Positions 8,778-25,315 of a DNA stretch of 25,315 nt are shown here, one piece after another. The position numbers and the translations under genes are program-made. Within the stretch, counting starts at the first letter, position 1; each line of letters begins with the position of its first letter. The DNA comes from a virus. The notes below the pieces were generated by a model. The model worked only from the letters and a program-made list of their open reading frames with translations. It did no database searches and was not told the DNA's origin. The DNA is taken from positions 1-25,315 of IMG/VR virus record IMGVR_UViG_3300033388_001351; one strand, written 5' to 3'.

Positions 8778-9020
8778 ATGACGATCCTTGAAGATCCTGA
8801 TAGAGAATATGGCTTAGTAGTTGGTGAGCCTTATTTGTGGCGTGATTATAACGGCAAGTATTGTATTCTTCAAGATGAGACTATGCTTAAGACAGATGAG
8901 AATGGTCATGTAAATGCATTATATTCGTCAGAAGAACTGGTTGATCCGAATCCATCGGAAGCAGAAATATTCAAATTTATATTAGCGGGTAAGGTTAAAA
9001 AGTCAGGTTATAGGGTATAG
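8778..9020 (+). CDS. small hypothetical protein (80 aa)
   Basis: Begins one base after the previous stop and ends overlapping, tail to tail, the minus-strand gene ending at 9008. It is acidic and predicted to be beta-rich in the first half (YGLVVGEPYLWRDYNGKYCI). No recognised domain. It is the last gene of the uvsW-led cluster. No hairpin terminator is visible at the convergent end. Confidence 0.6.
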   Translation: MTILEDPDREYGLVVGEPYLWRDYNGKYCILQDETMLKTDENGHVNALYSSEELVDPNPSEAEIFKFILAGKVKKSGYRV

Positions 9021-9613
9021 ATTTTGGGATTGCCCTGATCGTCTAGCTCATACTCAGCAGCATGTTTAGCAAATGCTTGATCGCCTTCCCTAAACATATC
9101 TTGTAAGCGTTCCAGCGCACCAATCGTAGCCTTGTAATTCTTCTTACCCAACGTAATAGCAGCATGGCGAGCCATTGCTTGCGCATAATTATAAACAGGA
9201 AGCTTTGCATGTTCCTGTGCGTATGCAGCTAATCTTTTATCTACTTCTGCTCTGTAAGCTTCTTCTGTAAGGCTTGGGTCCTTCTCTTGCCTGTAGCTGA
9301 CGCTAGAACGCACGTTTTCTTCGGCCTCTTTTTCAAATCCGTATCCTCTAGTCAATGTACCCAAAGTCTTTTCTACTTTGTCCCTAACAATTCCAGGATA
9401 GAAACTTCCGTAGTGCGCGTGGTGTGACATACGATGTGTTAGGTCACCCACATGTTCAAGTACAAAACTTAATACGCCACCACCCAATGCTGTCTGCGCC
9501 TTACGCATAGCAATTTCAGGAAGGCCACGTTGCTCGTTGCCTAGTTCAACGAATGCTGCCGCAACATGCTCGGGTAGCTCAATTTCTTTGTTGTCAAACT
9601 CAAATAATCTCAT
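9008..9613 (-). CDS. helical late protein, possible virion cargo (201 aa)
   Basis: Start ATG 9613 (MRLFEFDNKEIEL) overlaps the upstream stop as ATGA. The protein is almost entirely helical, with amphipathic stretches such as EEAYRAEVDKRLAAYAQEHA and ATIGALERLQDMFREGDQAF, and His-rich RMSHHAHYGSF in the middle. No cysteine motif or membrane segment. The opening MRLFEF resembles the short leaders of other late proteins here but lacks a clear (I/L)xE|small site. It is the fifth gene of the minus operon read from the late promoter at 11436-11444. Confidence 0.6.
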   Translation of the reverse strand: MRLFEFDNKEIELPEHVAAAFVELGNEQRGLPEIAMRKAQTALGGGVLSFVLEHVGDLTHRMSHHAHYGSFYPGIVRDKVEKTLGTLTRGYGFEKEAEENVRSSVSYRQEKDPSLTEEAYRAEVDKRLAAYAQEHAKLPVYNYAQAMARHAAITLGKKNYKATIGALERLQDMFREGDQAFAKHAAEYELDDQGNPKIYTL

Positions 9614-10194
9614 GTGCCTATTTCGCGCTTCAACCTTAGTTGTGTTGCAAAGCCTAATCCAGGAACTACGCTGCCGACTTTCCAGCCGAACCATATTTCA
9701 CTGTATGTGCCGTCGTCATTGAGCCATACACGACGCCAGCCAGCAAGTAGGCCCCTACGACGCCACAGCGAGGCGCTGGTCACACCCGCTGCAATCAGAT
9801 CGTGTGCTTCCAAGCTATCTCCTTGCCAACCATACTTGTCAAAAGGTTTATCATCGTCAAATAGGAAGCGCATGTTATTAAGTGGGTTGCGTATAGAGAA
9901 CCACCACCATTGTGGAAATACTTTCTTGTACCAAAAGTTTTGTACATAGCGATCAAACCATGCAGGGTAGCCTTCTTCTTGATTGCCGTAAATTGGGAGC
10001 TTCTTCATGTCTACATTGAATAGCAACGCTAATGGAATTACAACAACCATACCAAACGGAATTAATCCGACTGGCAAGAATGCCTGCCACCATGTTATAT
10101 CAACAAACGGCCATACGATAACGAGTGGGAAAACAAACAACAGCATGATAACTGCCCACTGTACAATGTGAAATAGTTTAACTAAAGGATTCAT
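9610..10194 (-). CDS. phage membrane protein with two N-terminal helices (194 aa)
   Basis: Two hydrophobic helices span about residues 7-30 (IVQWAVIMLLFVFPLVIVW) and 36-60 (WQAFLPVGLIPFGMVVVIPL), followed by a Trp- and Arg-rich soluble part (FPQWWWFSIRNPLNNMRFLF; RRRGLLAGWRRVW). I recall this arrangement from a family of small phage proteins of unknown function. Its place in a late operon suggests a role at the membrane during assembly or lysis, but no holin or spanin signature is present. Linked by ATGA overlaps on both sides. Confidence 0.65.
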   Translation of the reverse strand: MNPLVKLFHIVQWAVIMLLFVFPLVIVWPFVDITWWQAFLPVGLIPFGMVVVIPLALLFNVDMKKLPIYGNQEEGYPAWFDRYVQNFWYKKVFPQWWWFSIRNPLNNMRFLFDDDKPFDKYGWQGDSLEAHDLIAAGVTSASLWRRRGLLAGWRRVWLNDDGTYSEIWFGWKVGSVVPGLGFATQLRLKREIGT

Positions 10195-10625
10195 GCGTAA
10201 TCAGTTGGTTGCCAGCGAGGATGCATGTTCTTAATTTCGTTTCTGTCAAAATCATCCATCTTTGACATAGAGCGAACATCAGCACCATGATAATCTAGGA
10301 CATACCCAGAATCATCGCGCTTTCCGTAAACATTCTTGTCTTCAAAACTGCCATCATCATAAGCTGCATCAAGCTTTCTAGCAATTTCTGCGGCCTGCTC
10401 ATATGACTCAACATTAATGGCTACAACACGCCCGCCATCGCCCTTTCCTTTGTATCGTCCCTTGCCATCAGCAGGATCGCCGTCGCCATACCATTCCCAT
10501 GATTGCGCATGCCACGCAACATAGTAAGGTGAATCTTTCATAGCTTGCTCTTTTTCGCCTTGCTCACTATTGTAATCGACCATCTCTGGATCGTCGCGGC
10601 GAACCGCTATTTCTACTAATTTCAT
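10191..10625 (-). CDS. hypothetical late protein (144 aa)
   Basis: Starts MKLVEIAVRRDDPE. The leader resembles those of other late genes here (MKLLEI, MRLFEF). A central Gly/Lys/Asp stretch (GDPADGKGRYKGKGDGG) is followed by VVAINVESYEQAAEIARKLD, which looks like a small alpha/beta fold. It has no cysteine, membrane or enzyme motif that I recognise. The stop overlaps the next start as ATGA, and 3 nt separate it from the gene upstream. Confidence 0.6.
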   Translation of the reverse strand: MKLVEIAVRRDDPEMVDYNSEQGEKEQAMKDSPYYVAWHAQSWEWYGDGDPADGKGRYKGKGDGGRVVAINVESYEQAAEIARKLDAAYDDGSFEDKNVYGKRDDSGYVLDYHGADVRSMSKMDDFDRNEIKNMHPRWQPTDYA

Positions 10626-10628
10626 AAT

Positions 10629-11108
10629 TTAATCCTTCCTATTCTTTTTGAAAACAGTAACACGTTCGCTATAATAGCCATTTGACTGACCGAACCAACG
10701 TAATGTTACATGCCCTTTTATCGTGCCAAGTTTGTAAAATGTCCAAGTGTATGACTCAACCATGTAGTCACCGTAGTAATCTCTATCATCTTCGTCTGAC
10801 TTCAATCGGTCAGGCGGATTCTCATCTCTGCTAACAACTTCTTCAGCTTCTAAAATTGGGGTGCCGATTAGGTCGTCCAAATCACCAACAATATCTTCAA
10901 GATAAACAGACTCGCAGCAATCGCCTACATGATACATCTCATAATATTCGTCGTCTGCTGTCGTAAAATCAATCTGTGCCTTACCTGAGCCAACCTCAAC
11001 ATGAGTGAGAACTTTTCCTTTAAGGTCGGCAATATCTACTTGGTCATCTTCCCAATAGCCTTCCTCGATTCTCTCGATGGTTTCCATTAGTTTTCGCATT
11101 TCGTTCAT
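10629..11108 (-). CDS. conserved small protein, DUF7448-like, with cargo-type leader (159 aa)
   Basis: After a leader MNEMRKLMETIERIEE|G, nearly identical to that of the 800-residue protein, the body carries LKGKVLTHVEV, then YHVGDCCESVYLEDIVGDLD and IGTPILEAEEV. From memory this matches a widespread phage/bacterial domain listed as DUF7448; function unknown. Family members I recall lack the MNEMRKLME leader, which suggests the leader was added as a targeting tag, probably for packaging into the capsid. I-E-E|G at the leader end fits a prohead-protease site. The start overlaps the upstream stop by ATGA. Confidence 0.7.
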   Translation of the reverse strand: MNEMRKLMETIERIEEGYWEDDQVDIADLKGKVLTHVEVGSGKAQIDFTTADDEYYEMYHVGDCCESVYLEDIVGDLDDLIGTPILEAEEVVSRDENPPDRLKSDEDDRDYYGDYMVESYTWTFYKLGTIKGHVTLRWFGQSNGYYSERVTVFKKNRKD

Positions 11109-11431: not shown

Positions 11432-11435
11432 ACGT

Positions 11436-11444
11436 GTATTTATC
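11436..11444 (-). promoter_or_regulatory. T4-type late promoter, leaderless
   Basis: GATAAATAC on the minus strand. With T4 spacing, +1 falls at 11431, the first base of the start codon. Confidence 0.8.
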
Positions 11445-11450
11445 GTCGAA

Positions 11451-11831: not shown

Positions 11832-11860
11832 TTTAAGAGTCTCGTTATTGTCTACAGTGA

Positions 11861-13427: not shown

Positions 13428-14468
13428 ATGGCCGTTGAGGAAATTCTAAAAGATACAATAAGCCAGCATATCGGTCCTTTGAAACAAACACCTAGTGGAT
13501 GGAAAAAGAGGAACTGTATGCTGTGCCACCTACGCGGACAGTCGATGGACAAGCGGGAACGATTCGGCATTATTGACATTGAAGGAGGCATGAATATAAA
13601 CTGCTTCAACTGTGGATTTACAACAGGCTGGAGGCCAGCATCACTACTTGGCGACAAGATGGTATTTTTCTTGACTGCGTTAGGCGTAGCAGAAGAGGAT
13701 GTTAAGAGACTCAAGTTTGAAGCGTTCAGGGAAGCGAACAATATACAAACAAAGGAGTTCAAGCTAAAGGGTGCGATAACGGCCAAGTGGCATGAGATTG
13801 ATTTGATCGAAGACTGCCATCCTATGAGATTTTGGATCGAGAATGCATGTGAGGACAAAGACTTTTTGAAGGCAATCGAATACACAGACAGTCGTAGCTT
13901 ACTTGACATTGATAAAGTGTACTGGACACCAACAAAGAAGCGTATGTTTAACAAGCGATTCATTTATCCGTTCTTCTACAAGGGAAAAATTGTTGGCTAC
14001 ACTGGTCGCCTATCAGGCAACCCGCCAAGCAAGAACGTACCAAAGTATTTGACTGAAATGCCACCATCATACATATACGGTGTGGACAATCAGGTGGACA
14101 AGAAGTTCATAATTGTGGGCGAAGGCATGACTGATGCTGTAGTTACAGATGGAATTGGTGTGTTGCACAATAAAATTAACGCTGACCAAGTAAGCTTGAT
14201 AAATAGTTTGCCTGGACAAAAGATTCTTTGTCCAGATAGGGATAAGGATGGCGATGAATTAATAGAAACAGCAATAGAAAATAAATGGTTTGTTGCGTTT
14301 CCAAATTGGGGCCGTAACAAGAAAGGCGATCCCGTTAAAGATGCTAGTGAAGCAACAGAAATATACGGGCATTTGCTAACACTCAAAAGCATAATAGAAT
14401 CTCGAACGAAAGATTCACATGCAATAAGAATGAAAAGAAAATTAGATAGGGTAACACATGGATATTAA
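13428..14468 (+). CDS. 61: DNA primase, T4 gp61-like (346 aa)
   Basis: Makes RNA primers for lagging-strand synthesis with the gp41 helicase. The N-terminal zinc finger has C30, C33, C59 and C62 (CMLC, CFNC). The TOPRIM catalytic core has IIVGEGMTDAVV (E232) and CPDRDKDGDE (D270, D272, D274). The length equals T4 gp61 (about 342 aa). The start codon sits on the predicted transcription start, so the mRNA would be leaderless. The gene overlaps the helicase gene by 11 nt, the standard T4-like pairing for a primosome. Confidence 0.93.
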   Translation: MAVEEILKDTISQHIGPLKQTPSGWKKRNCMLCHLRGQSMDKRERFGIIDIEGGMNINCFNCGFTTGWRPASLLGDKMVFFLTALGVAEEDVKRLKFEAFREANNIQTKEFKLKGAITAKWHEIDLIEDCHPMRFWIENACEDKDFLKAIEYTDSRSLLDIDKVYWTPTKKRMFNKRFIYPFFYKGKIVGYTGRLSGNPPSKNVPKYLTEMPPSYIYGVDNQVDKKFIIVGEGMTDAVVTDGIGVLHNKINADQVSLINSLPGQKILCPDRDKDGDELIETAIENKWFVAFPNWGRNKKGDPVKDASEATEIYGHLLTLKSIIESRTKDSHAIRMKRKLDRVTHGY

Positions 14469-15867
14469 CGAATACACAAAAGATATAGAAGACTTGTTTT
14501 TGAAGATGCTGTACAACGACGCTGAAACGTTTGTACGGGTAAAGAATATAATCAGTCCTGGGTTTTTCGAGGATCTTGACAATCGAAAGACAATCGAATT
14601 CATACTAGAATACACAAACGAACACACCTCACTACCATCAAACTCACAGCTTAAGGCTATTACAGGTCATGAGATTGAAATAGAGCAATTTGATGAAAGC
14701 GCGACGGATTGGTTCATGGGAGAGTTTGAAACCTTCTGTCAGCAAAAAGCAGCAGCACAAGTAGCGTATGATTCAATTGATTTGATTAAAGACAACAACA
14801 TCGGTGAAGTTTTGTCGCGCATGAAGGCGGCAGTTGAGCTAGGCATCGTCAAAGACTTGGGTATTGACTATTTTGAAAATCCTGCAGAGCGTTTGAAGCA
14901 CATGCGGGACAATAGTAAGATGATTTCAACAGGTTGGAAGACAATTGACGCTAAATTGTACGGCGGACTCGAAAGAGGCACGCTTACAATTTGGGCAGGG
15001 CAGTCAGGTGCAGGTAAATCACTTTTCTTGCAAAATCAGGCGTTGAATTGGGCAGAACTCGGTCTTAATGTTGTATATATCAGTTTAGAGCTTAGTGAAC
15101 AGCTAACTTCGATGCGTGTTGACGCAATGACTACGAATTACAGCACAAAAGAGATCATGAAGAACATTGATGACGTTGCATTGAAGGTCGGAGCGTTTAA
15201 GAAGAAGTGTAAATCAGGATCCTTCCAAATTAAGCAGCTTCCGAACGGCAGTACTGCAAACGACATCAAAGCGTACATTAAAGAGTACGAAATTCAGACA
15301 AAATCAAAGGTCGATGCAATTTTGGTCGATTACTTGGACTTGTGTGCGCCACTTGACAAGAGAGTAAGTCCTTCGGATATGTTTGTTAAGGATAAGTACG
15401 TATCTGAAGAGCTACGCAACATTGCAATTGACTTGGATGTGCTTATGGTCACGGCAAGCCAGTTGAATAGGGGCTCACATGACGAAATCGAGTTTAGTCA
15501 TGCGCATATTGCGGGTGGTATCTCGAAAATCAATACAGCAGACAATGTGATTGCAATTTTCACAACAATTTCCATGAAGGAAAACGGTCGTTATCAAATT
15601 CAGTTCATGAAGACACGATCATCTGCGGGTGTTGGGCAAAAGGTTGACTTGAAATTCGATATTAAGTCACTCAGGATTGTCGATCTTGAAGAAGGCGAAG
15701 AAGATGCGCAGACACATACAGCATCAAACATTCTCGATACACTCAAACGCACGAATGTTGTGAAAGATGTGCAAGAAACTGAGTCTGAGAAGGACAAAAG
15801 GTCTGGATCTGACGCAAAACAGAAGGCAAAAGCACTTCGCCAACTCGTCAAGACGGGTAATATTTAA
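14458..15867 (+). CDS. 41: replicative DNA helicase, T4 gp41-like (469 aa)
   Basis: A hexameric 5'-3' DnaB-family helicase that unwinds the fork and activates the primase. Walker A is GQSGAGKS (181-188), the H1a segment is YISLELSE (207-214), and Walker B is AILVDYLDL (about 286-294). Further on are VTASQLNRG and FMKTRSSAGVG, the DnaB-type motifs H3 and H4. The N-terminal ~150 residues are the helical oligomerisation region. The length matches T4 gp41 (475 aa). The C-terminal tail is charged and Lys-rich (ESEKDKRSGSDAKQKAKALR). Overlaps the primase gene by 11 nt. Confidence 0.95.
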   Translation: MDINEYTKDIEDLFLKMLYNDAETFVRVKNIISPGFFEDLDNRKTIEFILEYTNEHTSLPSNSQLKAITGHEIEIEQFDESATDWFMGEFETFCQQKAAAQVAYDSIDLIKDNNIGEVLSRMKAAVELGIVKDLGIDYFENPAERLKHMRDNSKMISTGWKTIDAKLYGGLERGTLTIWAGQSGAGKSLFLQNQALNWAELGLNVVYISLELSEQLTSMRVDAMTTNYSTKEIMKNIDDVALKVGAFKKKCKSGSFQIKQLPNGSTANDIKAYIKEYEIQTKSKVDAILVDYLDLCAPLDKRVSPSDMFVKDKYVSEELRNIAIDLDVLMVTASQLNRGSHDEIEFSHAHIAGGISKINTADNVIAIFTTISMKENGRYQIQFMKTRSSAGVGQKVDLKFDIKSLRIVDLEEGEEDAQTHTASNILDTLKRTNVVKDVQETESEKDKRSGSDAKQKAKALRQLVKTGNI

Positions 15868-15879: not shown

Positions 15880-15927
15880 CGCCAGTTTTTAGATAAATAC
15901 ACAGAGTAACTTATTTAGGAACTGGCG
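15880..15927 (+). repeat. inverted repeat enclosing a late promoter and reaching the start codon
   Basis: CGCCAGTT (15880-15887) and AACTGGCG (15920-15927) are perfect complements. The late promoter lies in the loop. The right arm lies just after TTTAGG and ends on the G of the GTG start codon. Only read-through RNA from the helicase gene would carry both arms. Confidence 0.75.
15892..15900 (+). promoter_or_regulatory. T4-type late promoter for the cargo operon
   Basis: GATAAATAC; predicted +1 at 15905, giving a 22-nt leader before GTG 15927. The RNA starts inside the loop of the surrounding inverted repeat. Confidence 0.82.
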
Positions 15928-16223
15928 TGAAAAATAAAAAAATTGCCCTACACCAAAGCTCTCGCTCCATATTGGAGGAGCTCCAACGTGCTGCACCGAC
16001 AAAGACAAAAGAACATGTTGTCGAAAGTCGGGGCCATCACATTATCTCGTCCGCAGTACATTTTCTGGACGTACTAACAGAGAACTACACAGAAGAAGAG
16101 GCAGAGCAAATCACACGCAGGTTCCTCAGTGCGATACGAGGCGGCGACCCACAACGATTTGTCCGTTCTGTACGTAAAATACAAGAAAGCCAACAGGAGA
16201 AGAAACGTGAGGGCGATGCATAA
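15927..16223 (+). CDS. conserved small T4-like phage protein (98 aa, GTG start)
   Basis: GTG 15927 with AGGA upstream. The protein is helical: SSRSILEELQRAAPTKTKEH, then VVESRGHHIISSAVHFLDVL, YTEEEAEQITRRFLSAIRGG and a charged tail. I recall similar small proteins beside gene 41 in marine T4-like phages, with no known function. Its start codon lies in the right arm of an inverted repeat, so translation is probably restricted to late transcripts. Confidence 0.65.
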   Translation: MKNKKIALHQSSRSILEELQRAAPTKTKEHVVESRGHHIISSAVHFLDVLTENYTEEEAEQITRRFLSAIRGGDPQRFVRSVRKIQESQQEKKREGDA

Positions 16224-16581
16224 AGGAATACTAACAGCAGGACTATTGTCTATGCTGTTTTTGACAAGTTGCGATCCAGATGGAAGCAAATTGCCAGAAG
16301 ATTTTGATAGGAGTGGTGAGGTAATTGAGATTACAGTTATTTGGCATCCTAGCCAACAAGCAGTTGACAAGGCTTACGTAGAAGAATTTGGACGAGCACG
16401 CAATGAGCGTGCAATTAATCGTTTAGGCTTTGCAGTTTGGGCAAACCCAAGTAGAGAGCCAAAATGGTGCAGAATTCATGCGATGAAGCCAACAAGCGTC
16501 AAAGGTGGCGATAAAATGAACACATTGGGACACGAACTATTACATTGTGTGATCGGAACGTTCCACCCAGAACCAGATTAA
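16207..16581 (+). CDS. lipoprotein with HExxH metal site (124 aa)
   Basis: Start GTG 16207 has AGGAGA 7 nt upstream. The N-terminus MRAMHKGILTAGLLSMLFLT ends at lipobox LTSC (C22), predicting signal peptidase II cleavage and lipid attachment. The C-terminus has GHELLHCVIGTFHPE (H109, E110, H113, with H120 as likely third ligand), a zinc-peptidase-type signature with one residue more than the metzincin spacing. An exported lipid-anchored metalloprotein encoded in a late operon could act in lysis, for example at the outer membrane, or alter the cell surface. This is inference. It overlaps the upstream gene by 17 nt. Confidence 0.75.
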   Translation: MRAMHKGILTAGLLSMLFLTSCDPDGSKLPEDFDRSGEVIEITVIWHPSQQAVDKAYVEEFGRARNERAINRLGFAVWANPSREPKWCRIHAMKPTSVKGGDKMNTLGHELLHCVIGTFHPEPD

Positions 16582-16582
16582 T

Positions 16583-16768
16583 ATGAAACTATTAGAAATA
16601 CAACGACAAATGAAAAAGCGTAGGAATTTCCGTGAAGGAAATTATGCTATTTCTGTGAACCTAGTAAATCCAGGCGATGAATTTCAAGAATTTCTAAAAG
16701 TAAAAATTACAGAAGACGGCAAGATCGTTGCAAAGTTTTCTATATCTAATATACGTATTACGAAATGA
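16583..16768 (+). pseudogene. truncated copy A of a duplicated small gene
   Basis: MKLLEIQRQMKKRRNF and the following residues are the same as copy B downstream up to DGKIVAK. After the GCAAAG ending at 16735 the sequence changes to an unrelated short tail (FSISNIRITK) and stops. The first 153 bp match copy B except for two synonymous changes (CTA/CTG Leu, CGT/CGC Arg). This looks like a truncated duplicate; the peptide may still be made, as it has its own start 1 base after the upstream stop. Confidence 0.65.
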
Positions 16769-16868
16769 CGGCACAGATGTACTTAACGGCCATCCAGATT
16801 CGCGTCGATACTACGCTAAAGAAGATTTTGAGTGGCTGGAAGGCACATGGGAAGCACCGCAGAGATGA
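16736..16868 (+). pseudogene. C-terminal remnant of a gene between repeats
   Basis: In the frame ending TGA 16866-16868 the segment reads YVLRNDGTDVLNGHPDSRRY and YYAKEDFEWLEGTWEAPQR, which looks like real protein. No start codon or coding-like sequence joins it upstream. Its stop overlaps the ATG of copy B (ATGA), the normal operon junction of this phage. It seems to be the tail of a gene whose front was replaced by copy A. Confidence 0.5.
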
Positions 16869-17231: not shown

Positions 17232-17232
17232 C

Positions 17233-18390
17233 ATGAAGAATATTACAGAAGCATCCACACTATCAGGCTTGGGAATTCCAGACAATATTGTAAAGAGAAT
17301 TCACACAGAATTTAGCCCTACACTTAAACATGACCATGAATTTGAAGAGCTTAAGACAAAAGGCCAGATGCAGACAAAGCTGAAGCGCGGCAAACTCATT
17401 ATTGGTTTTAGTCCAAAGGGCGACATTGCAAGTATGCGTGAGGGTGGCAAACGCCACACAAGGTACTACGGAACTATTGGCTCAGAAGAGGTTGATTCCT
17501 CGGCTAGCATGAAAGACATGCTAACTAACTTTTCAGGACGGGGTTGGAAGTGGTTTGCTACAGTTGACGGTTGGAGAGATAAGCCGTACCATGAATTCAG
17601 GCGCCAAGAAACACCAAATTATGAAATACATGATGCGTTCAAAGATAAGCTAGAAAAAGTACATGGCCCAAAACTACGTAAAGAAGCAGCACAATACGCC
17701 GAAGACATAAAAGAATTTCTAGTTACATTTGCAACAGGTGATGAAGTGAAAGTTGATAAGCATAGGTGGCGCGGCGATGCGGATCCTAATGATCTGTATA
17801 TGGGCAAACTTCGTAGAGCAATGCATAACCTACGTAAAGTCGCAAGTTCAGATACGCCACACCATGAATTTTCCCCGAAAGGTATTGCTGATCTTATTGA
17901 CCAAAATGTAGGCGAGCCAAAAGTCGATTATGATTTCCAAAAAGTAGATGATAAGTCAGGAAAATACATGCGCAATGCTAAATTAGGAACTGCTAAGGTA
18001 GCTCAACTGGTTTTGCGTAAGTTACGTGCATATAGGGATGATGTGATTGACGCGGCTAAGAAAGATCGTGCTAGTCAAACAAAGAAACGTTCACTTGGTA
18101 AAGTAAAGAAAGCTTGGGAAAGCTACAAAGATTCAGGCAAGGTAAATGTTTTGTCAGAAGACGAGTTTGACCAATATGCTGCTGAGGTAGATCCGTATAC
18201 CTCAGGCTACAAAGCAGGTCTAAAGCAAGAAGAAGCAAGCCGATTTGATGCCGTACGCGATGCTAGCGCATTTCAGGCATACAAAGCATGGATAATCGAA
18301 GTAGGACAAAGTTCAGCCTCAGTTAAAAATGCAGAAGAATTTGTGCGTGGTTGGAATGATGGTGAAGCAATCAGTGGAGTAGGTATATAA
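17233..18390 (+). CDS. basic late protein with cargo-type leader (385 aa)
   Basis: Start ATG 17233, 2 nt from the upstream stop. It begins MKNITEASTLSGLG, where I-T-E|A matches the prohead-protease site and resembles T4 internal proteins. The body is Lys/Arg-rich and helical in the second half (LGTAKVAQLVLRKLRAYRDD, KKRSLGKVKKAWESYKDSGK). The first part has an alternating Gly/Thr-rich segment (RHTRYYGTIGSEEVDSS) and WKWFATVDGWRDKPYHEF. No known enzyme motif. Basic, packaged proteins of this sort could bind the genome or enter the host with it; this is inference from leader and composition. Confidence 0.6.
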   Translation: MKNITEASTLSGLGIPDNIVKRIHTEFSPTLKHDHEFEELKTKGQMQTKLKRGKLIIGFSPKGDIASMREGGKRHTRYYGTIGSEEVDSSASMKDMLTNFSGRGWKWFATVDGWRDKPYHEFRRQETPNYEIHDAFKDKLEKVHGPKLRKEAAQYAEDIKEFLVTFATGDEVKVDKHRWRGDADPNDLYMGKLRRAMHNLRKVASSDTPHHEFSPKGIADLIDQNVGEPKVDYDFQKVDDKSGKYMRNAKLGTAKVAQLVLRKLRAYRDDVIDAAKKDRASQTKKRSLGKVKKAWESYKDSGKVNVLSEDEFDQYAAEVDPYTSGYKAGLKQEEASRFDAVRDASAFQAYKAWIIEVGQSSASVKNAEEFVRGWNDGEAISGVGI

Positions 18391-18746
18391 TGAACGACAT
18401 GAGAAAATTAATGGAAGCTGTTGAGCAAGCACAGACAGCAAATCCTGTAGATACAGTCACAGTAGACATTCCTCTATTGATTCGACTACTTGAATTCTCC
18501 CGCGAAGATGCAAAGACTGATATGGATTTGCATAACCTAGCAGACAATATGATTAACTTGTCGCCTGAGGGTAACACATTAACAATGGCTGACTACGAGG
18601 AATTGATAATGGGACTTGCAGGCGATGATGACGCCGAAGGCCCAGAAACATTTACTACAGACGATGGTCGCGAAGAACCAGTACGTGGTAGAATGTCAGA
18701 CGATGATGATTATGGTGTTGGCGGACTGATTGACCAAGGACGATAA
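18390..18746 (+). CDS. acidic late protein with MNDMRKLME leader (118 aa)
   Basis: Begins MNDMRKLMEAVEQAQ, the third copy in the window of this leader type. The core VTVDIPLLIRLLEFSREDAK, MDLHNLADNMINLS and LTMADYEELI is a small helical fold I recall from marine T4-like phages without function. The C-terminus is very acidic (GDDDAEGPE, SDDDDYG). Overlaps its neighbours at both ends (TAATG). Confidence 0.65.
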   Translation: MNDMRKLMEAVEQAQTANPVDTVTVDIPLLIRLLEFSREDAKTDMDLHNLADNMINLSPEGNTLTMADYEELIMGLAGDDDAEGPETFTTDDGREEPVRGRMSDDDDYGVGGLIDQGR

Positions 18747-19600
18747 TGAGAGCACTTGAGCTACTAGAAAAACGCCGCATAGTTGAAGGCGGAAACGTAT
18801 TTCCAGATGTGGGTGCAATACATATCTCGGAAGTCGAGCCTACGCTCAAGGCAATTGGAAAATACATTAACTACCCGCAAGCATCGCAGCAGGCACTAGG
18901 CAGTGTCGGCAAAACAGATTACTCAGGTGACATTGATATTGCATTAGACGTTCAACCCGAACAAATCAAAGTTATGCATGATAAAATTTCTAAGAAGCTC
19001 GGCGCAGACAGCGTGAAGATGGTATCGGGCATTTTGACCCTACGCTTTCCGATTGCAAATTATGACGAGTCCCAACAGGAGCGTCAACCACGTACTGGAC
19101 TAGTACAGGTTGATTTGATCCCAGGTAACGTTGATTGGATGCGTACATTTTTCCATTCTCCAGGCAAGACATCCGAATATAAAGGCGCACATAGAAACAT
19201 AGCACTGGCGACAGTTGCGGCGCTACTTGAGAACACGGCAAGCAAAGAAATGGACAGTCACGACCGCCCAGTTGCAGCAGAACGTTGGTCTTGGGGTAAG
19301 AAAGAAGGACTACAGAAAGTTCGTAAAACAGGAATCAAGAAAGGCGACAAGTGGCTTAAGAAACAAGACATTGAGGTCATTTCTACGCCTACAAAAAATC
19401 CTAATGAAATTGCAAAGATACTTTTCAAAGGCAAAGCTGGTGCAGAAGCACTAAACAGCTTAGAGTCTATTATTGCAGCGGTACAAGTAGCATATAGCCC
19501 TGACGAAGCCGCAGCAATCTTTGAACGCATGGCGTGGTCACTGAATACACGCGATCTTGATGCTAAACTTCCACCCGAACTAGAGCCATATAGAAAATGA
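18746..19600 (+). CDS. Pol-beta-fold nucleotidyltransferase with cargo-type leader (284 aa)
   Basis: The leader MRALELLEKRRIVE|GG fits a prohead-protease site. The core has the minimal nucleotidyltransferase signature: GS at 52-53, then DYSGDIDIAL with D62 and D64, and third acidic residue D123 in LVQVDLI. Such enzymes transfer nucleotides to proteins, RNA ends or small molecules. A C-terminal half rich in Lys (GIKKGDKWLKKQD) and helices could bind nucleic acid. Its 3' end overlaps the ligase-like gene by 4 nt (ATGA), so the two are co-translated and probably work together. Substrate unknown; RNA-end repair, nucleotide tagging of a host protein, or a role in the capsid are all open. Confidence 0.75.
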   Translation: MRALELLEKRRIVEGGNVFPDVGAIHISEVEPTLKAIGKYINYPQASQQALGSVGKTDYSGDIDIALDVQPEQIKVMHDKISKKLGADSVKMVSGILTLRFPIANYDESQQERQPRTGLVQVDLIPGNVDWMRTFFHSPGKTSEYKGAHRNIALATVAALLENTASKEMDSHDRPVAAERWSWGKKEGLQKVRKTGIKKGDKWLKKQDIEVISTPTKNPNEIAKILFKGKAGAEALNSLESIIAAVQVAYSPDEAAAIFERMAWSLNTRDLDAKLPPELEPYRK

Positions 19601-20802
19601 GAGCAAGAGAGCTTCTAGCAGAGGCCAAGAACCCTCACCTCGCCCACCTTGAAGATTTACTTTTCGATAAGGGTTATGCGGGTGCAGTGGAGTCTCTAAA
19701 ACTTGCGACAGGTGTTCGCAATATGCTTGCAAAAGGCAAGGGAAAGCGCGGCAAGGTCACAGTCAAGTTTGACGGTGCTCCTGCAATCTTCGCAGGCATT
19801 GATCCTGCTGACGGTAAGTTTTTTGTCGGCGGCAAGGCAGCATTTTCCAAGAATCCAAAAATGATTAAGAAGCCGTCTGATATGAAAAAGTTTTATGATG
19901 GCGCGCCCGAAGGATTTACTTCCAAAATGGCTATTGCATATACTGAGCTAAAGAAGCTAGGCATTAAGAACGTATTACAGGGCGATTTAATGTTTGTAAG
20001 TGATATGCTAGACCACACAACAATTGATGGCGAGGAATACCTTACATTTACACCAAATACAATTACGTATGCAGTTGAGGCAGGTTCAGACTTAGCAAAA
20101 GAAATGCAACGTGCAAAATTTGGCATTGTATTCCATACAGCATATGAGGGTGGAGAAACAATTAACGATGCAGATAAGACATTTGACATTGACTTGAGTG
20201 GATTGAACAACACGCCTGACGTTTGGTACGATGATGCAGAATACAAAGACATGACAGGCATTGCTTCCCTGACTCTTGAAGAAGATGAGCACCTACGTCA
20301 AGAGATTATTGCAGCAAAAGCCAGGTTAACAGAATTGGGCAAGGGTGCAATTGACACAATTGTAAATAACCCTGAATTCAAGAAAACAATTCAAGTCTTT
20401 GTTAACGCTAATGTACGCGCTGGGCAGCACATGCCGTCATCTGAACAGTTTACTAGGGATTTCCTAAACTTCCACAAAGAACGCACATTGCAAGATGTTG
20501 GTGATTTGAAATCGGATCTTGCAAAGCAAAAGAGGCACCAAAAAGTCGAGGACAAGAAATCATTTATTGAACAAAATCAACAAAGCGTATACAAGCTAAT
20601 TGATTTGTATAATCACCTAAATGAGATTAAATTGATCCTTATAAACAAGCTAAATACTATTGATGGAATGAAGACATTTATTCGATCAGGAAATGGATTT
20701 GAAGTTACAAACCCTGAGGGCTTTGTAGCACTAGGTCATCAAGGTGACGCAACAAAATTAGTTAACAGGATGGAGTTCTCACAGCAGAACTTCAACAAAT
20801 AA
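19597..20802 (+). CDS. ATP-dependent ligase-like protein, DUF6267-type (401 aa)
   Basis: The leader MRARELLAE|A resembles that of its partner gene. The body shows the covalent nucleotidyltransferase motifs of ligases in order. Motif I is VKFDGAPAIFAG (K57 predicted nucleophile, D59, G60). A motif III-like VLQGDLMF lies at 126-133. The motif IV-like EGFVAL has E374, and the motif V-like TKLVNRMEFS has K387. A helical insertion at about 230-350 widens the III-IV spacing. From memory the family is listed as DUF6267 in T4-like phages; its ligase relationship is my reading of the motifs. DNA or RNA end joining is plausible, possibly with the nucleotidyltransferase upstream. Confidence 0.65.
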   Translation: MRARELLAEAKNPHLAHLEDLLFDKGYAGAVESLKLATGVRNMLAKGKGKRGKVTVKFDGAPAIFAGIDPADGKFFVGGKAAFSKNPKMIKKPSDMKKFYDGAPEGFTSKMAIAYTELKKLGIKNVLQGDLMFVSDMLDHTTIDGEEYLTFTPNTITYAVEAGSDLAKEMQRAKFGIVFHTAYEGGETINDADKTFDIDLSGLNNTPDVWYDDAEYKDMTGIASLTLEEDEHLRQEIIAAKARLTELGKGAIDTIVNNPEFKKTIQVFVNANVRAGQHMPSSEQFTRDFLNFHKERTLQDVGDLKSDLAKQKRHQKVEDKKSFIEQNQQSVYKLIDLYNHLNEIKLILINKLNTIDGMKTFIRSGNGFEVTNPEGFVALGHQGDATKLVNRMEFSQQNFNK

Positions 20803-22103
20803 TGAGCAAATACGAATTAGTACATGAACTTTGTGAGAGTCGGATTTTCCGTAGCAAACAAGCTATGGGTAAATACAATGAACGCCAAGCAAATGAACTA
20901 CTTTATTCTATATTGCTATCTACTATTGCATTAGCACTAAACCCAAAAACACATACTTGGGCTACGAAATATGCAGCTAAAACTGGCGCATTTGGCAACT
21001 TTACCTTTTTCCGACCAACAGCTACCGACCTATATGTGTTAACATATATGGCGTACAAAGAGAATGGCGCAATTGGTAAACAGGGTGCCCAAAAACTCTT
21101 GCGTCTTTACAAAGAATTAGGCAGGGGTGACGTTGATTCAAATTATGCAGAACAGACACTATTGCGTTTGGAACGTGGATTGAAAGTTAACAATGCGCGC
21201 CTACGTAATGCTCGTCGTGTGCTTACGCATTGGGGCAACTCTTCTCCAGATGAACAAAAGCAAACACTAGCAAACCTGTATCGTATTGTTCGAGCAGATG
21301 CTAAACTAGCGGAAGTATTGCCGTACTTGCAAGTAGCACAAGCTGGTGAGCCAGGACACTTTGGTAAAATGGGCATTGGCAAATTTGCAGCAGCATTAGC
21401 TGGCGCTGGACTTGCTGGTGTTGCATTAGGCTCAAGACTCTATGATCCTGGCAAACGTTGGGGCGTATTGAGGAACAGCGCAGAAAAGGGCGGCATTTAC
21501 CTCAAAGAAGATCGACCAACACAGTTATTCAACCTTGTACAAAATCTAAACCAGCATCCTGACATTGAAAAGATCATTAGCGTTAACTATCTAGTTGACG
21601 GTGCATCTGCATTTGTTCGCACTACTGATGGTAACGCATATGAACTAGAAATTCGGCCTGCCCCATTCGCTAAGGGACACGATGTAAAACGTGGTGTAAC
21701 TGAGGCTGTTGGAAAAATTGCTTGCTTGAAATGTGACGAAGTTTCAACTGAAAAAGCATGGAATGAGAACGATGATGTTTGTCCTAAATGTCATGCATCT
21801 ACACAGGGCGTAGCTGAGAGCTATACAGTTACAATTACTGAGCGCAACGATGCGGCAATTACAGGCAATGATGCAGCAATAATAGCACGAACAGCCAAGC
21901 AGGCAGCAGAAGTTTTTGACAAAGCAGACAAAGGCGGCGATGGTTGTGCTGTTGAGGGCGAGTCTGTTCAGGATCATTTGAAAAATGTTCGTGCTATGTA
22001 TGGCGTAGAAATCGTAGATGACTTCTTAGATGTGCTTGACTTTCCTAATGCTGAAGGCGACACTGCTAAACAACAAAGTTTACTCACAAAAGACAATAGA
22101 TAA
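20802..22103 (+). CDS. modular late protein with zinc ribbon and predicted cleavage sites (433 aa)
   Basis: Begins MSKYELVHELCE|SRIF, a leader with a possible (L)xE site. Residues 15-230 are a helical body with a Gly/Ala-rich hydrophobic stretch near 193-210 (FAAALAGAGLAGVALG) that could insert into a membrane. Then come GVTE|AVGKIACLKC, a zinc-ribbon module (CLKC, CPKC), GVAE|SYTVTITE, and a final helical module (VQDHLKNVRAMYGVEIVDDF). The module borders use the same VxE|(A/S) pattern as the 800-residue protein, and EAVGK here parallels EAVGR there. I infer a packaged, processed protein; the membrane-like stretch would suit delivery into the host. Confidence 0.6.
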   Translation: MSKYELVHELCESRIFRSKQAMGKYNERQANELLYSILLSTIALALNPKTHTWATKYAAKTGAFGNFTFFRPTATDLYVLTYMAYKENGAIGKQGAQKLLRLYKELGRGDVDSNYAEQTLLRLERGLKVNNARLRNARRVLTHWGNSSPDEQKQTLANLYRIVRADAKLAEVLPYLQVAQAGEPGHFGKMGIGKFAAALAGAGLAGVALGSRLYDPGKRWGVLRNSAEKGGIYLKEDRPTQLFNLVQNLNQHPDIEKIISVNYLVDGASAFVRTTDGNAYELEIRPAPFAKGHDVKRGVTEAVGKIACLKCDEVSTEKAWNENDDVCPKCHASTQGVAESYTVTITERNDAAITGNDAAIIARTAKQAAEVFDKADKGGDGCAVEGESVQDHLKNVRAMYGVEIVDDFLDVLDFPNAEGDTAKQQSLLTKDNR

Positions 22104-22187: not shown

Positions 22188-22439
22188 ATGGTAGATAGAA
22201 TTAATGGTGGCCCTCTTCAGGGTATTTGGTTCTCGCAAGATGTTCGTTTTGCGAGTGTTACACTAACAAACGGCGGCGACAGCTTTTTAACAGAGCTAGG
22301 AAACAGCCCAACAGGTAACGGTGATGCAGCAGTTGTAACATCAATTGATACTCAAATCGAACTTATTGCAGACCTATCTGTAGCTACAGTTACAGTAGAG
22401 TCTGGTTTTGGCCCAGTTGCAGAAGGCACACCAGGATAA
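22188..22439 (+). CDS. small late paralogue 1 (83 aa)
   Basis: Begins MVDRINGGPLQGIWFSQDVR and ends VTVESGFGPVAEGTPG, both matching the next gene (paralogue 2), but the middle is about 50 residues shorter. It is Gly/Thr/Val-rich, lacks Cys and Lys, and is probably a compact beta protein. Own late promoter, strong ribosome site (AGGAG) and terminator indicate high late expression, as for a capsid decoration or other abundant virion protein. Function is inferred from expression signals only. Confidence 0.65.
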   Translation: MVDRINGGPLQGIWFSQDVRFASVTLTNGGDSFLTELGNSPTGNGDAAVVTSIDTQIELIADLSVATVTVESGFGPVAEGTPG

Positions 22440-22465
22440 TTACTTTCACAGTAATAAAAAATTAA

Positions 22466-22490
22466 GCAGCACTTCGGTGCTGTTTTTTTT
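22466..22490 (+). terminator. Rho-independent terminator with UUCG loop
   Basis: CAGCAC-TTCG-GTGCTG followed by eight T. Confidence 0.95.
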
Positions 22491-22521
22491 GGCTCATAAC
22501 TATATAAAAATAACACAGATA

Positions 22522-22530
22522 GATAAATAC
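22522..22530 (+). promoter_or_regulatory. T4-type late promoter
   Basis: GATAAATAC; predicted +1 near 22535, 39-nt leader to ATG 22574. Confidence 0.85.
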
Positions 22531-22537
22531 TTGCATA

Positions 22538-22552
22538 GTAGGATTAACCTGC
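22538..22552 (+). promoter_or_regulatory. 5' UTR hairpin, second copy
   Basis: GTAGG-ATTAA-CCTGC; the C-to-T change relative to the first copy turns a C-G pair into U-G, so the stem is kept although the loop changed. Confidence 0.6.
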
Positions 22553-22573
22553 GACAAAATTAGGAGAAGTAAA

Positions 22574-22966
22574 ATGGTAACAAGAGTAAATGGCGCACCA
22601 ACACAGGGCGTATGGTTTTCAGCAAATGTTCGTTTCTTAGATCTAACAGTAACAAACGGCGATTTCCTTAACGACCTAACTGTACCTGGTACAGCACCTG
22701 TACCAAACAGCACACTAGAAGTAGTTCTAGAAGCAATTGCAACACGCGGCACAATCATCGGAGTAACAGTCATTGATATTGATGACGTTAATGTTATGGT
22801 TGATTATGCACAAGCATATGACGATGCAGCAGTTGTAGCAGAAGTTACAGCACTAATTGATGCATTCGACGGCGCAACTCCAGGCTTGGATGTTGCTGAT
22901 CTAACAGCTTCAGCATTCGTAGTTGAATCTGGTTTTGCAGGCGCAACACAGGGTACACCAGCATAA
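22574..22966 (+). CDS. small late paralogue 2 (130 aa)
   Basis: Shares its start (MVTRVNGAPTQGVWFSANVR) and end (VVESGFAGATQGTPA) with paralogue 1. Its middle (LEVVLEAIATRGTIIGVTVI, then DIDDVNVMVDYAQAYDDAAV) aligns with paralogue 3 downstream. The composition is acidic and beta-rich with no Cys or Trp beyond the N-terminus. Late promoter, conserved 5' UTR hairpin, strong ribosome site and terminator point to an abundant virion protein. Confidence 0.65.
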   Translation: MVTRVNGAPTQGVWFSANVRFLDLTVTNGDFLNDLTVPGTAPVPNSTLEVVLEAIATRGTIIGVTVIDIDDVNVMVDYAQAYDDAAVVAEVTALIDAFDGATPGLDVADLTASAFVVESGFAGATQGTPA

Positions 22967-22993
22967 TAGCTAGTATACTTGCACAAAATTTAA

Positions 22994-23020
22994 AGCAGTC
23001 CTTCGGGGCTGCTTTTTTTT
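22994..23020 (+). terminator. Rho-independent terminator with UUCG loop
   Basis: AGCAGTCC-TTCG-GGGCTGCT (one G-T pair) followed by a T run to 23020. Confidence 0.95.
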
Positions 23021-23039
23021 GTCTTAAAAATATCTTTTA

Positions 23040-23048
23040 GATAAATAA
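23040..23048 (+). promoter_or_regulatory. T4-type late promoter
   Basis: GATAAATAA; predicted +1 near 23053, 25-nt leader with AGGAG before ATG 23078. Confidence 0.8.
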
Positions 23049-23077
23049 CAGTATAACCAAATTCAGGAGTTAGAACA

Positions 23078-23785
23078 ATGGCAGTAAGAGTACACGGCGG
23101 CATAATTAATGACCAAATGCTAGCAGGTAACATTCGATATTTCGATATTGAAGAAGCTAACATGACAGTGAATACAATTGCGAGTCTAGGCACAGCTAAT
23201 CCATTCCAAGTAACCAAAGCCGAAACAGTAGTTGGTGGTACGGGCTATTCGGTACTTGATGTATTGACAGTAGTTGGTGCAGGCACAGCAGCAACATTGA
23301 CTGTAGAAGTTGTAGACGCGGGCGTAGTTGTTGGTGTTTCGTTAACAACACCTGGTTCTTACACTACCCTGCCGACTAATCCAGTAGCCACAACTGGTGG
23401 CGCGGCCACAGCAACATTTGATCTGAGCTATACAAGTACCCTAATCATCCCAGGTGCAGGAACAGGCGCAAATGAATACTTTGTTGCCCGTGATAAGCCA
23501 GTTGCAGGCAGCGCAGTAGATCAAGTGCTATTTGAAGTTGCAAAATTTGGCACAATTGTACAAATCGCAATAGTAGACGTAGATACAGTACGTGTAGCAC
23601 TTGAAAACGATAGCATGTCTTGGGATACGGCTGTAGTAGGTGACGCGGCAGCAGAGATGGAAGATGCAATTCAAGCACTAGGTACAATAACAGTTCCTGA
23701 CGTAACAACAAACGGCCTAGGTTTTGACCTAAGTTTAGCAACGGTCAACGAGCGTACACTCGCAAGTTTCGCACCATTGCCGTAA
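23078..23785 (+). CDS. late paralogue 3 with inserted beta domain (235 aa)
   Basis: The ends and C-terminal part follow the small late paralogues: MAVRVHGG at the start, FEVAKFGTIVQIAIVDVDTV and a segment near DAAAEMEDAIQALGTI. Between about residues 47 and 122 it carries an extra Gly/Val/Thr-rich domain (VVGGTGYSVLDVLTVVGAGT, VSLTTPGSYTTLPTNPVATT) of a kind I recall as an insertion in marine phage structural proteins. I infer a domain gain in a duplicated virion protein, possibly exposed on the particle. Own promoter and terminator. Confidence 0.65.
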   Translation: MAVRVHGGIINDQMLAGNIRYFDIEEANMTVNTIASLGTANPFQVTKAETVVGGTGYSVLDVLTVVGAGTAATLTVEVVDAGVVVGVSLTTPGSYTTLPTNPVATTGGAATATFDLSYTSTLIIPGAGTGANEYFVARDKPVAGSAVDQVLFEVAKFGTIVQIAIVDVDTVRVALENDSMSWDTAVVGDAAAEMEDAIQALGTITVPDVTTNGLGFDLSLATVNERTLASFAPLP

Positions 23786-23812
23786 TATAAGATTTCGTTG
23801 GCAAAAAGTAAT

Positions 23813-23836
23813 GGGCACTTCGGTGCCCTTTCTTTT
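23813..23836 (+). terminator. Rho-independent terminator with UUCG loop
   Basis: GGGCAC-TTCG-GTGCCC followed by TTTCTTTT. An outer TTGGCA/TGCCAA pair (from about 23798 to 23856) flanks it. Confidence 0.92.
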
Positions 23837-23860
23837 GTATGCGTTTTCTGCCAAGGTGTT

Positions 23861-23869
23861 GATAAATAC
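23861..23869 (+). promoter_or_regulatory. T4-type late promoter
   Basis: GATAAATAC; predicted +1 near 23874, 21-nt leader with GGGAG before ATG 23895. It reads the last three genes of the window. Confidence 0.85.
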
Positions 23870-23894
23870 TTGTACATACACATAGGGAGACGAT

Positions 23895-24341
23895 ATGGTT
23901 AGTAAGACACATGGCATAGCCAGTGCTACAAGAATCGTCACAGGAGCTTTACAATGTTACACAGTTTGGTGCAAGTCACCTAGCGCATATACTGATCCAG
24001 ATAATGCGTCAGGGGTAAACTTGAAAATAACGGGTAATATTGTAGACGAAACACAGAAAAATTTTGAATTAATGGTACAAAGCATTGGCCTAAGGACTAT
24101 GCCCATTATTTTGAATGATCCACAGGCTGTGATTGACTTAGCAGAAGATGGAGCAGCCTCACTTAATGGTGAGGGGTTTGTATGGCGCTTTGGCGTTGAA
24201 CAAATCGGCATCTTTAGAAATGCAAAAAGTGAATTCGGACTATTGGTTGACGAGATGAATGGTGTAGTATTATCGAATGGTGCAATATTGCGCACTTCGG
24301 GAAATGACCAGAATATAGAGTTTGAGAAACAGGAATTATAA
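23895..24341 (+). CDS. late hypothetical protein (148 aa)
   Basis: Begins MVSKTHGIASATRIVTGALQ, a start with some likeness to the small paralogues (short charged opening then Gly) but not clearly homologous. The rest is mixed alpha/beta: LKITGNIVDETQKNFELMVQ, RTMPIILNDPQAVIDLAEDG, FVWRFGVEQIGIF. It has no Cys cluster beyond C21/C26, and no membrane segment. First gene of a late unit with the two modular genes that follow; stop overlaps the next start (TAATG). A virion protein is likely. Confidence 0.6.
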   Translation: MVSKTHGIASATRIVTGALQCYTVWCKSPSAYTDPDNASGVNLKITGNIVDETQKNFELMVQSIGLRTMPIILNDPQAVIDLAEDGAASLNGEGFVWRFGVEQIGIFRNAKSEFGLLVDEMNGVVLSNGAILRTSGNDQNIEFEKQEL

Positions 24342-24910
24342 TGCTAGTTGAAGAAGTAGTAACGTCCGACGAAAAATACGTAGTTATTGGTAGGGATTCT
24401 GACGGATACCAGTGGGACGTTGATCGTGACCTCAGCAAAGAGCAAGCTATGGCAGCAGGTGCTTCCGCGGCAGAAGAAGACGTTAACGTATACGGCGAAA
24501 ACGCAACAATGGAAAGAACTAGCGAGTGGTCTTGGCGTGTAAAATCTCCAGGACACAGCTATACGGCTTGGTTTACTGTTTATCTCCAAGACGAGAACGA
24601 AGACAAAGAACTTGCTGCTGACAATGAATGGCATGACGGTATAGCTGAAGAGGTAGACGTTGAAGAAGGCATAGCTTGGAAAAAGCGAGGCCAAAAAATT
24701 ATACGTCAATTTCGTTGTGCATCAGGCCCACGTAAAGGTCGCGTTGTAGCTAGCCCAGGACAATGCTTCAAGCCAATCGACATTAAGAAGCGGGCTTCTT
24801 TGCGCCGAACAAAAGCAAAGATGGGTACAAGAGCAACACGTAAGAGTCAACGAACAAAGAAATTTAACCCTGTAAGCAAAAGGGTTAAGTCAATGAACAA
24901 GAGACGATAA
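24341..24910 (+). CDS. two-part late protein with basic C-terminal domain (189 aa)
   Basis: Residues 1-105 are acidic and include a YVVIGRDSDGYQWDVDRDLS segment. After GIAE|EVDVEE|GIAWKKRG, which contains candidate protease sites, comes an 80-residue, strongly basic domain (KIIRQFRCASGPRKGRVVAS, PGQCFKPIDIKKRASLRRTK, ending KRVKSMNKRR). I recall this basic module at the C-terminus of proteins in many marine T4-like phages. Two conserved Cys may bind metal. Cleavage at VEE|G would release a DNA-binding, histone-like peptide inside the head; this is inference. Confidence 0.65.
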   Translation: MLVEEVVTSDEKYVVIGRDSDGYQWDVDRDLSKEQAMAAGASAAEEDVNVYGENATMERTSEWSWRVKSPGHSYTAWFTVYLQDENEDKELAADNEWHDGIAEEVDVEEGIAWKKRGQKIIRQFRCASGPRKGRVVASPGQCFKPIDIKKRASLRRTKAKMGTRATRKSQRTKKFNPVSKRVKSMNKRR

Positions 24911-25315
24911 TGAAAAAGTTTATACAGAACCTAGAAGAGAAGACACAGTCTGTGTTGTTTGAAGGACTTTCAGATGACGCTGCCGAACTAACTGGCATTG
25001 ACAAAGAAATGGTAGATGACGCAGTTAAGGGACTCAGTTATGCTAACTACTTGGAACTTGGCAATGCTATTGACATTGACGATGTTGAGACAGTAAAAGA
25101 AATCCTAGGCACAGTTGTTGATCTAGTCCCAGGCGATGACATTGATCTTGAAGAGGGTATATTCGGCGACATGATTCACGACCTTACAAAAGAAAAATGC
25201 GATTATTGTGGCGGCGAGTTTCAATTTGAAGGCGAAGATGTGCATGACTATAAGGGCGGAACAAAATCCATGGGCGACCCATTTCGGTTATGTGGAGTAT
25301 GCGATAGTGTATGGA
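24910..25315 (+). CDS. modular late protein, cut by the window end (135+ aa)
   Basis: Begins MKKFIQNLEEKTQSVLFE|GL, another leader ending in LxE|G. A helical module (ELTGIDKEMVDDAVKGL, then YANYLELGNAIDIDDVETVK) is followed by IDLEE|GIFGD and a zinc-ribbon module (CDYCGGEF, CGVC). The same build as the 800- and 433-residue proteins: small domains separated by LEE|G-type borders. The start overlaps the upstream stop (TAATG). The 3' end is outside the window. Confidence 0.65.
   Translation, partial: MKKFIQNLEEKTQSVLFEGLSDDAAELTGIDKEMVDDAVKGLSYANYLELGNAIDIDDVETVKEILGTVVDLVPGDDIDLEEGIFGDMIHDLTKEKCDYCGGEFQFEGEDVHDYKGGTKSMGDPFRLCGVCDSVW

Follow-up and report, generated by a model that had tools for sequence, protein, structure and literature searches.

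Why does a phage begin late proteins with unrelated bodies with nearly the same few residues? The question is raised by IMGVR_UViG_3300033388_001351, a virus fragment of 25,315 nt from IMG/VR (the whole stretch analysed, hereafter the window), whose source is a T4-like, Kyanoviridae-related myovirus of bacteria. A reading made from the sequence alone had proposed that short N-terminal leaders shared by unrelated late proteins are capsid-targeting tags. We found that a few leader families (MN[ED]MRKLMExVxx[IL]xE, MRAxELLxE and M[RK]L[FYHV]E) recur in front of dozens of unrelated bodies, and the leaders are very probably capsid-targeting sequences of the T4 kind that feed a large and exchangeable cargo of internal proteins. 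The proposal is supported by the boundary of the leaders at a protease-type site, the leaders of head proteins, late promoters, avoidance of the site inside the bodies, virion data and leaders resembling that of T4 IPIII.

Leaders shared by unrelated bodies

All leaders quoted in the sequence-only reading were recovered in the window translations (Table 1; a slash marks the putative cleavage site). MNEMRKLME opens two minus-strand genes, starting at 3517 and 11108, the first of which lies outside the range that had been given for the leaders. MKNITEA is the start of the 17233 gene at the second ATG in frame, the first ATG (17206) overlapping the upstream open reading frame (ORF). The starts with MNDMRKLME, MRALELLE, MRARELLAE, MKLVE, MKLLE and MKKFIQNLEEKTQSVLFE/G were confirmed as well. 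MRLFE (9613, minus strand) and MSKYELVHELCE (20802, plus strand) had been overlooked, and MLVE (24341, plus strand) is probably a further leader. Nearly all of the window leaders finish in [L/I]xE.

To compare this motif with chance, proteins in which the E of [LI]xE falls at residues 5-12 were counted before and after shuffling of residues 2-16. The motif was present in 14 of the 33 window proteins of at least 75 residues, against 4.9 in the shuffles (z 4.9). An excess was also observed in relatives designated G001 (30 versus 16.3), G003 (24 versus 8.6), G018 (22 versus 9.6) and G017 (64 versus 40.1), the gene starts in the uncultured relatives being our own calls, and in T4 (37 versus 22.0 expected); in S-PM2 the motif was not in excess (12 versus 11.8). 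The short form M[KR][LI]xE is prominent in the clade, with 8 instances versus 0.4 expected in G001 and 12 versus 0.8 in G017. G017 (328 kb) and G019 (340 kb), which are jumbo-size T4-like contigs (loci L174-L207), carry large leader sets.

The leader behaves as a module that is separable from the body. A DNA pattern for MN[ED]MRKL[ML]E retrieved 54 stretches from IMG/VR, yielding 56 distinct proteins, and in all 56 the leader opens an ORF of at least 61 codons. These proteins fall into 33 body clusters between which no BLAST similarity was found. When one protein per cluster was considered, residues 10-17, which the search had left free, read [AT][VIL]xx[IL]xE[GAD], after which conservation stops: [L/I]xE with E at positions 12-18 is found in 21 of the 33 clusters, and at positions 19-25 in only one. 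As conservation stops after the second [L/I]xE, this leader is about 16 residues long and ends at a protease-type site. The 58 leader copies are encoded by 40 different 27-mers, and this variation of synonymous codons indicates that selection acts on the protein. A signal at the start of the RNA was ruled out, the codons and upstream bases varying freely.

Homologues of the window DUF7448 protein in Bacillus and Pseudomonas phages begin exactly where its leader ends, which bears out the earlier claim that some bodies are domains found elsewhere without a leader. Conversely, related bodies carry different leaders: DUF6267 proteins open with MRARELLAE/A in the window, MRAWELLFE/A in G001, MRFRDLVE/S in G018, MYNDLLVE/D in HTVC008M and MMKFTQFLAE/S in DLP_6. 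In 60 of 69 DUF6267 members from IMG/VR, [L/I]xE lies no more than 8 residues from the body; the residue after the site is A in 34 and S in 14, and Y, F or L often precedes the site. Many of these leaders are near-copies of that of T4 IPIII (for example MKSFKKYIAE/A). The claim that the bodies have no common fold holds for those that could be typed, namely DUF7448, DUF6267 (ligase-like) and a Pol-beta nucleotidyltransferase; PHROGs and Pfam put names on few of the leader-bearing bodies of the window.

Protease sites, late promoters and virion proteomes

In T4, gp21 cleaves Alt at ITE-6 (PMC5694885) and IPIII is cut after a leader of 10 residues (PMC9026906), the sequence being MKTYQEFIAE/A. 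A gp21 gene (S77 family, PF03420) is encoded in the MN[ED]MRKLME-bearing relatives G005, G017, G018 and G019, and its product retains the His/Ser/Asp positions. In these four relatives, gp21, gp22 and gp23 themselves open with leaders such as MSNKLYE/, MRKFEDILAE/, MANKLFE/ and MANLFE/. PF03420 had no match in G001, G003 and G004, contigs in which no head module was found.

If the leader proteins must survive gp21, their bodies should avoid internal [L/I]xE. The observed/expected ratio was 0.92 in leader bodies and 1.20 in other proteins, and none of 5000 random sets was as low. In shuffles, the depletion is seen chiefly for [L/I]xE; the controls [L/I]xD and Ex[L/I] were undepleted, although [L/I]xxE and [VMF]xE were low in class B. 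T4 IPII and IPIII have the leader site only, and the degraded T4 gp22 has 16 [L/I]xE sites. The avoidance signal is moderate, and it was looked for after the leaders had been defined. A strict T4 rule (hydrophobic residues at P7 and P4, [LI] at P3 and E at P1) matches one window protein versus 0.3 expected, and in relatives it fits many leaders of DUF6267 and NMNAT proteins; it misses the class A and class C leaders of the window (MNEMRKLME and MRLFE).

The leader genes are probably expressed late, judging from T4-type late-promoter patterns (NATAAATA) in front of their operons. Across eight genomes, such a pattern heads the operon of 75 of 95 leader genes, compared with 553 of 1284 other genes (odds ratio 4.9 after stratification, z 6.8). 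Directly in front of the UvsW and polymerase genes there is no such site.

Published virion proteomes of cultured relatives offered an independent comparison. In S-CREM2 (annotated starts, two genome stretches; PMC10665884), among the non-structural or unnamed proteins detected in the virion, 7 of 13 have [L/I]xE with its E between residues 5 and 12, as have 6 of 88 undetected proteins (Fisher P=1.2e-4); the counts are 9 of 13 and 13 of 88 when E is allowed at 5-18. Leader proteins, which the sequence-only reading had proposed to seek in virions, are far commoner among the virion-detected non-structural proteins of cultured relatives than among undetected proteins. The S-CREM2 virion leaders include those of an S-adenosylmethionine (SAM) hydrolase (MKDFDSFLEE/), a kinase (VKRFDAFLTE/), gp13 (MKDLHSFLTE/) and an NMNAT (MKNFSSFLTE/A). 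In S-SCSM1 and S-SZBM1, the NMNAT-like proteins of the virion open with MKSFLQFLKE/A and MRFRQFIIE/A. The S-SZBM1 DUF6267 protein is leaderless and does not figure in that phage's virion table, a single case which is suggestive. T4-GC190, detected in S-SM1 virions (PMC3037559), is in S-PM2 (103025-104804; L056 3025-4804) a 'cytidyltransferase' that fuses the C-terminal half of DUF6267 to a following NMNAT domain; the N-terminal half lies in a separate frame, probably through a frameshift. Also detected in the S-CREM2 virion is a Cas9-like nuclease (L294 7704-10313, minus strand), which has a leader-like stretch, RFASFMAE/A, about 25 residues in, M replacing L/I.

We propose that a leader of 5-18 residues would bind the assembling prohead core, and that a late protein, whatever its body, would thereby be built into the prohead. 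A gp21-type prohead protease would cut after [L/I]xE and remove the leader; the mature body would stay beside the DNA inside the head and would most likely enter the host at DNA ejection. The proteins of this phage would likewise be packaged, cleaved and injected with the DNA, and the roles of the individual bodies are putative.

Several points weigh against this proposal. The head genes are absent from the window, gp21 being found only in relatives, and the virion support comes from cultured relatives, not from the window's own clade; the proteomics authors themselves warn of carry-over of abundant proteins in caesium chloride preparations. Leaderless DUF6267 proteins exist in S-SZBM1, S-CRM01 and S-PM2, where they start with MAKNTHLEHLED or similar. 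The leader classes were set after inspection of the data; three checks stand apart from this definition, namely the S-CREM2 comparison, the residues past the searched ones and the promoter counts. Class A lacks the hydrophobic residue directly before [L/I] that is present in the T4 IPIII leader, and its bodies lie on the acidic side of the average (a median charge of -0.07 to -0.10 per residue; classes B and C are near neutral), whereas T4 internal proteins are basic. Only some bodies are strongly basic, for example the C-terminal half of the 24341-24910 protein (net +26, after DVEE/G).

Given the acidity of class A, the MNEMRKLME group may partly consist of core components that are degraded in the prohead rather than of injected cargo. 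On this reading, which we hold to be the less likely one, part of the set, mainly the acidic MNEMRKLME proteins, would be core or scaffold like T4 gp22, gp67 and gp68, joining the core through the same N-terminal motif, degraded by gp21 and never delivered. The three T4 proteins do open with [LI]xE leaders and are cut to pieces (PMC5694885), and an 800-residue window protein has 7 [LI]xE/[GADSN] sites versus 2.9 expected (only z 2.5 for the idea of a polyprotein). However, core proteins form conserved families whereas class A comprises 33 unrelated bodies, its internal sites are no commoner than those of other proteins, and DUF7448 is a folded domain that also occurs in phages without such a head. 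That the leaders dock elsewhere (a host chaperone, the membrane, the tail or a transcription complex), [L/I]xE being incidental, is improbable: a protease-type site marks the end of conservation, the motif is shared with head proteins encoded in the same genomes, leader-bearing orthologues are detected in virions of cultured relatives, the site is avoided inside leader bodies, and the leaders have no hydrophobic core of the secretion-signal kind.

Shared ancestry, with diverged paralogues whose N-terminus changes most slowly, or an RNA signal at the start codon, would fit the adjacency of some leader genes in G005 and G001. We give this very little credence, as the 33 clusters have no detectable body similarity and differ in their domains, related bodies carry different leaders, and codons and upstream bases are unconstrained. 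As for coincidence, short N-terminal runs of K/R, hydrophobic residues and E are common anyway, and [LI]xE turns up close to some 10-15% of N-termini, or of internal stretches in general; the z values of 3.8-6.2 across the window, G001, G003 and G018, the M[KR][LI]xE excess in G017 and the identical 9-mers borne by unrelated proteins leave it almost no room.

Predicted cargo and features of the window

The cargo probably includes the RNA-ligase-like DUF6267 protein and, in relatives, the anti-CBASS protein Acb1 (CBASS, cyclic-oligonucleotide-based antiphage signalling system). DUF6267 looks like an RNA-ligase-type nucleotidyltransferase: K57, D59 and G60 are invariant in 45 sequences, and the model (mean predicted local distance difference test score, pLDDT, 83) aligned in VIA with a Naegleria RNA ligase (Z 8.6, root-mean-square deviation 3.8, 183 residues) and with T4 Rnl1 (Z 7.5), nearly all top VIA rows being ligases. 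Foldseek with the same model returned only meaningless carbonic-anhydrase rows. One G017 protein has a match to Pfam RNA_ligase (1.2e-4) that falls short of the curated threshold. Residues 1-13 of the model have pLDDT below 50, so the leader is no confident part of the fold. The DUF6267 gene is widespread among T4-like phages of the sea: of 600 stretches retrieved by pattern, 594 were confirmed.

The neighbouring 18746 protein was modelled, with low confidence, as Pol-beta-type (Z up to 6.2), and its gene overlaps the DUF6267 gene (18746-20802). Homologues of the two are fused in G003 (L016 9986-12034, minus strand), where the junction LNE/STVLRE/A keeps two [L/I]xE sites. Scans with the window 18746 and 20802 proteins returned only a close relative, L002. 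We suggest that the ligase and the Pol-beta protein could be a packaged RNA-repair pair. The module lies 3' of gp41 and is approximately syntenic with the Kyanoviridae order gp41, hypothetical, DUF6267, hypothetical, cytidylyltransferase (NMNAT-like), ..., gp61, which was seen in HTVC008M, Melnitz, S-SZBM1 and S-SCSM1, and also in DLP_6.

In relatives, Acb1 proteins bear the leaders MRLYE/ (G017, L185 12773-13225) and MRLFE/ (G018, L165 18918-19700) and are possibly packaged counter-defence. T4 Acb1 has an N-terminus of similar length without [LI]xE; the leader may replace, rather than precede, the native N-terminal residues. G019 has a Fe/Mn superoxide dismutase with the leader MKLHDFLTE/ (L200 14765-15304, minus strand). 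Further leader bodies in relatives are a 5'-nucleotidase, a cytidylyltransferase, an acetyltransferase, an amidoligase and, by a weak match, an Arr-like ADP-ribosyltransferase. We lean slightly towards the view that the clade runs a modular delivery system, in which a few exchangeable leaders, used like zip codes, direct into the virion a large and rapidly changing set of counter-defence and repair enzymes (RNA ligase/Pol-beta, Acb1, ADP-ribosyltransferase-like protein, NMNAT, 5'-nucleotidase and superoxide dismutase) to act before phage expression.

The 800-residue protein has zinc-knuckle-like CxxC motifs and a KOW-like stretch, and its domain content differs among relatives. At 16583-17231, a perfect 76-nt repeat present three times and a 164-nt repeat (96%) disrupt the small MKLLE gene, which is intact and single-copy in L002; the repeats are either a recent duplication or an assembly artefact. 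At 22188-23785, three successive small proteins start alike (MVDRINGG, MVTRVNGA and MAVRVHGG), each with a late-promoter-like site before its gene, and similar genes occur in G001. A near-DNA search of phage records with the window matched nothing.

Table 1. Coordinates of leaders, leader-bearing genes, promoter-like sites and replication genes in the window
Feature	Position	Strand	Remarks
Leader-bearing 800-aa acidic protein	1115..3517	-	net charge -75; weak KOW match; more internal [LI]xE
Leader MNEMRKLMESIKRIDE/ of 800-aa protein	3470..3517	-	[LI]xE at residues 9 and 16
Late-promoter-like GATAAATA	3547..3554	-	37 nt before 3517 start
UvsW	3544-5034		
DnaQ-like exonuclease	6983-7516		
Split DNA polymerase, one part	8192-8776		
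Leader MRLFE/ of gene 9008-9613	9599..9613	-	G003 homologue MRLKNILE/
Leader MKLVE/ of gene 10191-10625	10611..10625	-	
DUF7448 protein plus leader	10629..11108	-	
Leader MNEMRKLMETIERIEE/ of DUF7448 protein	11061..11108	-	leaderless homologues start at its end
Late-promoter-like GATAAATA	11437..11444	-	heads minus-strand operon 11431-9008
gp61-like primase	13428-14468		
gp41 helicase	14458-15867		
Late-promoter-like GATAAATA	15892..15899	+	heads operon 15927-22103
Leader MKLLE/	16583..16597	+	gene disrupted by tandem duplication 16583-17231
Leader MKNITE/ of gene 17233-18390	17233..17250	+	compare T4 Alt ITE-6
Leader MNDMRKLME/ of gene 18390-18746	18390..18416	+	
Pol-beta-type nucleotidyltransferase	18746..19600	+	motif GSVGKTDYSGDIDIA; fused to DUF6267 in G003
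Leader MRALELLE/ of gene 18746-19600	18746..18769	+	model confidence low there
DUF6267 protein	19597..20802	+	predicted RNA-ligase-like; KxDG invariant
Leader MRARELLAE/A of DUF6267 protein	19597..19623	+	pLDDT <50 for residues 1-13
Leader MSKYELVHELCE/S	20802..20837	+	LCE/SRIF retained in G001, G003
Late-promoter-like GATAAATA	23861..23868	+	heads 23895-25315
MLVE/-starting protein	24341..24910	+	homologues open MRIDE/, MIINE/, MKITE/
Leader MKKFIQNLEEKTQSVLFE/G	24910..24963	+	gene cut by window end
Candidate leader tags of the clade: MNEMRKLMETIERIEEG, MRARELLAEA, MRLFE			

Relation to known systems

Capsid targeting has so far been seen as a speciality of T4 with few cargoes; here the principle spans dozens of unrelated bodies, and it would explain the presence of NMNAT-like proteins, SAM hydrolase and kinases in virions of cultured cyanophages. 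It provides a simple sequence rule to predict packaged phage proteins that lack a known function and, if the clade does run such a delivery system, the leader alone would predict what uncultured T4-like phages carry. Anti-CBASS and RNA-repair enzymes that bear tags would be a likely first wave of counter-defence, and the leaders offer natural tags to load proteins into phage heads. In the open-access literature, to which our search was confined (subscription papers lay outside it), we found no description of these leader families.

The closest known system is the T4 capsid-targeting sequence of IPI, IPII, IPIII and Alt (Mullaney and Black 1996; PMC9026906, PMC5694885). The two share a short N-terminal [I/L]xE leader, a protease of the gp21 family encoded in the same genomes, late expression (here predicted from promoter patterns) and unrelated bodies behind similar leaders, and the DUF6267 and NMNAT leaders nearly match that of IPIII. 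However, T4 has a handful of such proteins only, whereas several leader families are found here on dozens of bodies per clade; one of these families has 16 residues and two sites, and class A differs in its acidic bodies and in the residue before [I/L]. In phiKZ and SPN3US, diverged head and ejection proteins also share N-terminal propeptides, which a gp21-related protease cuts after glutamate (PMC5694885, PMC7411985), but these propeptides are mostly longer than 100 residues and end in AxE or SxE, compared to 5-18 residues and [L/I]xE here. The predicted RNA ligase beside a putative Pol-beta nucleotidyltransferase in the window recalls the RlaP RNA-repair pairing described in jumbo phages (PMC7824862). 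Finally, the NMNAT/cytidylyltransferases, kinases and SAM hydrolase of cyanophage virions share the same syntenic module and kind of leader (PMC10665884, PMC9146016, PMC9602691, PMC3037559); these papers, in the parts available, report virion presence and name no targeting leader, and the window's clade differs from the cyanophages in having other leader families and other bodies.

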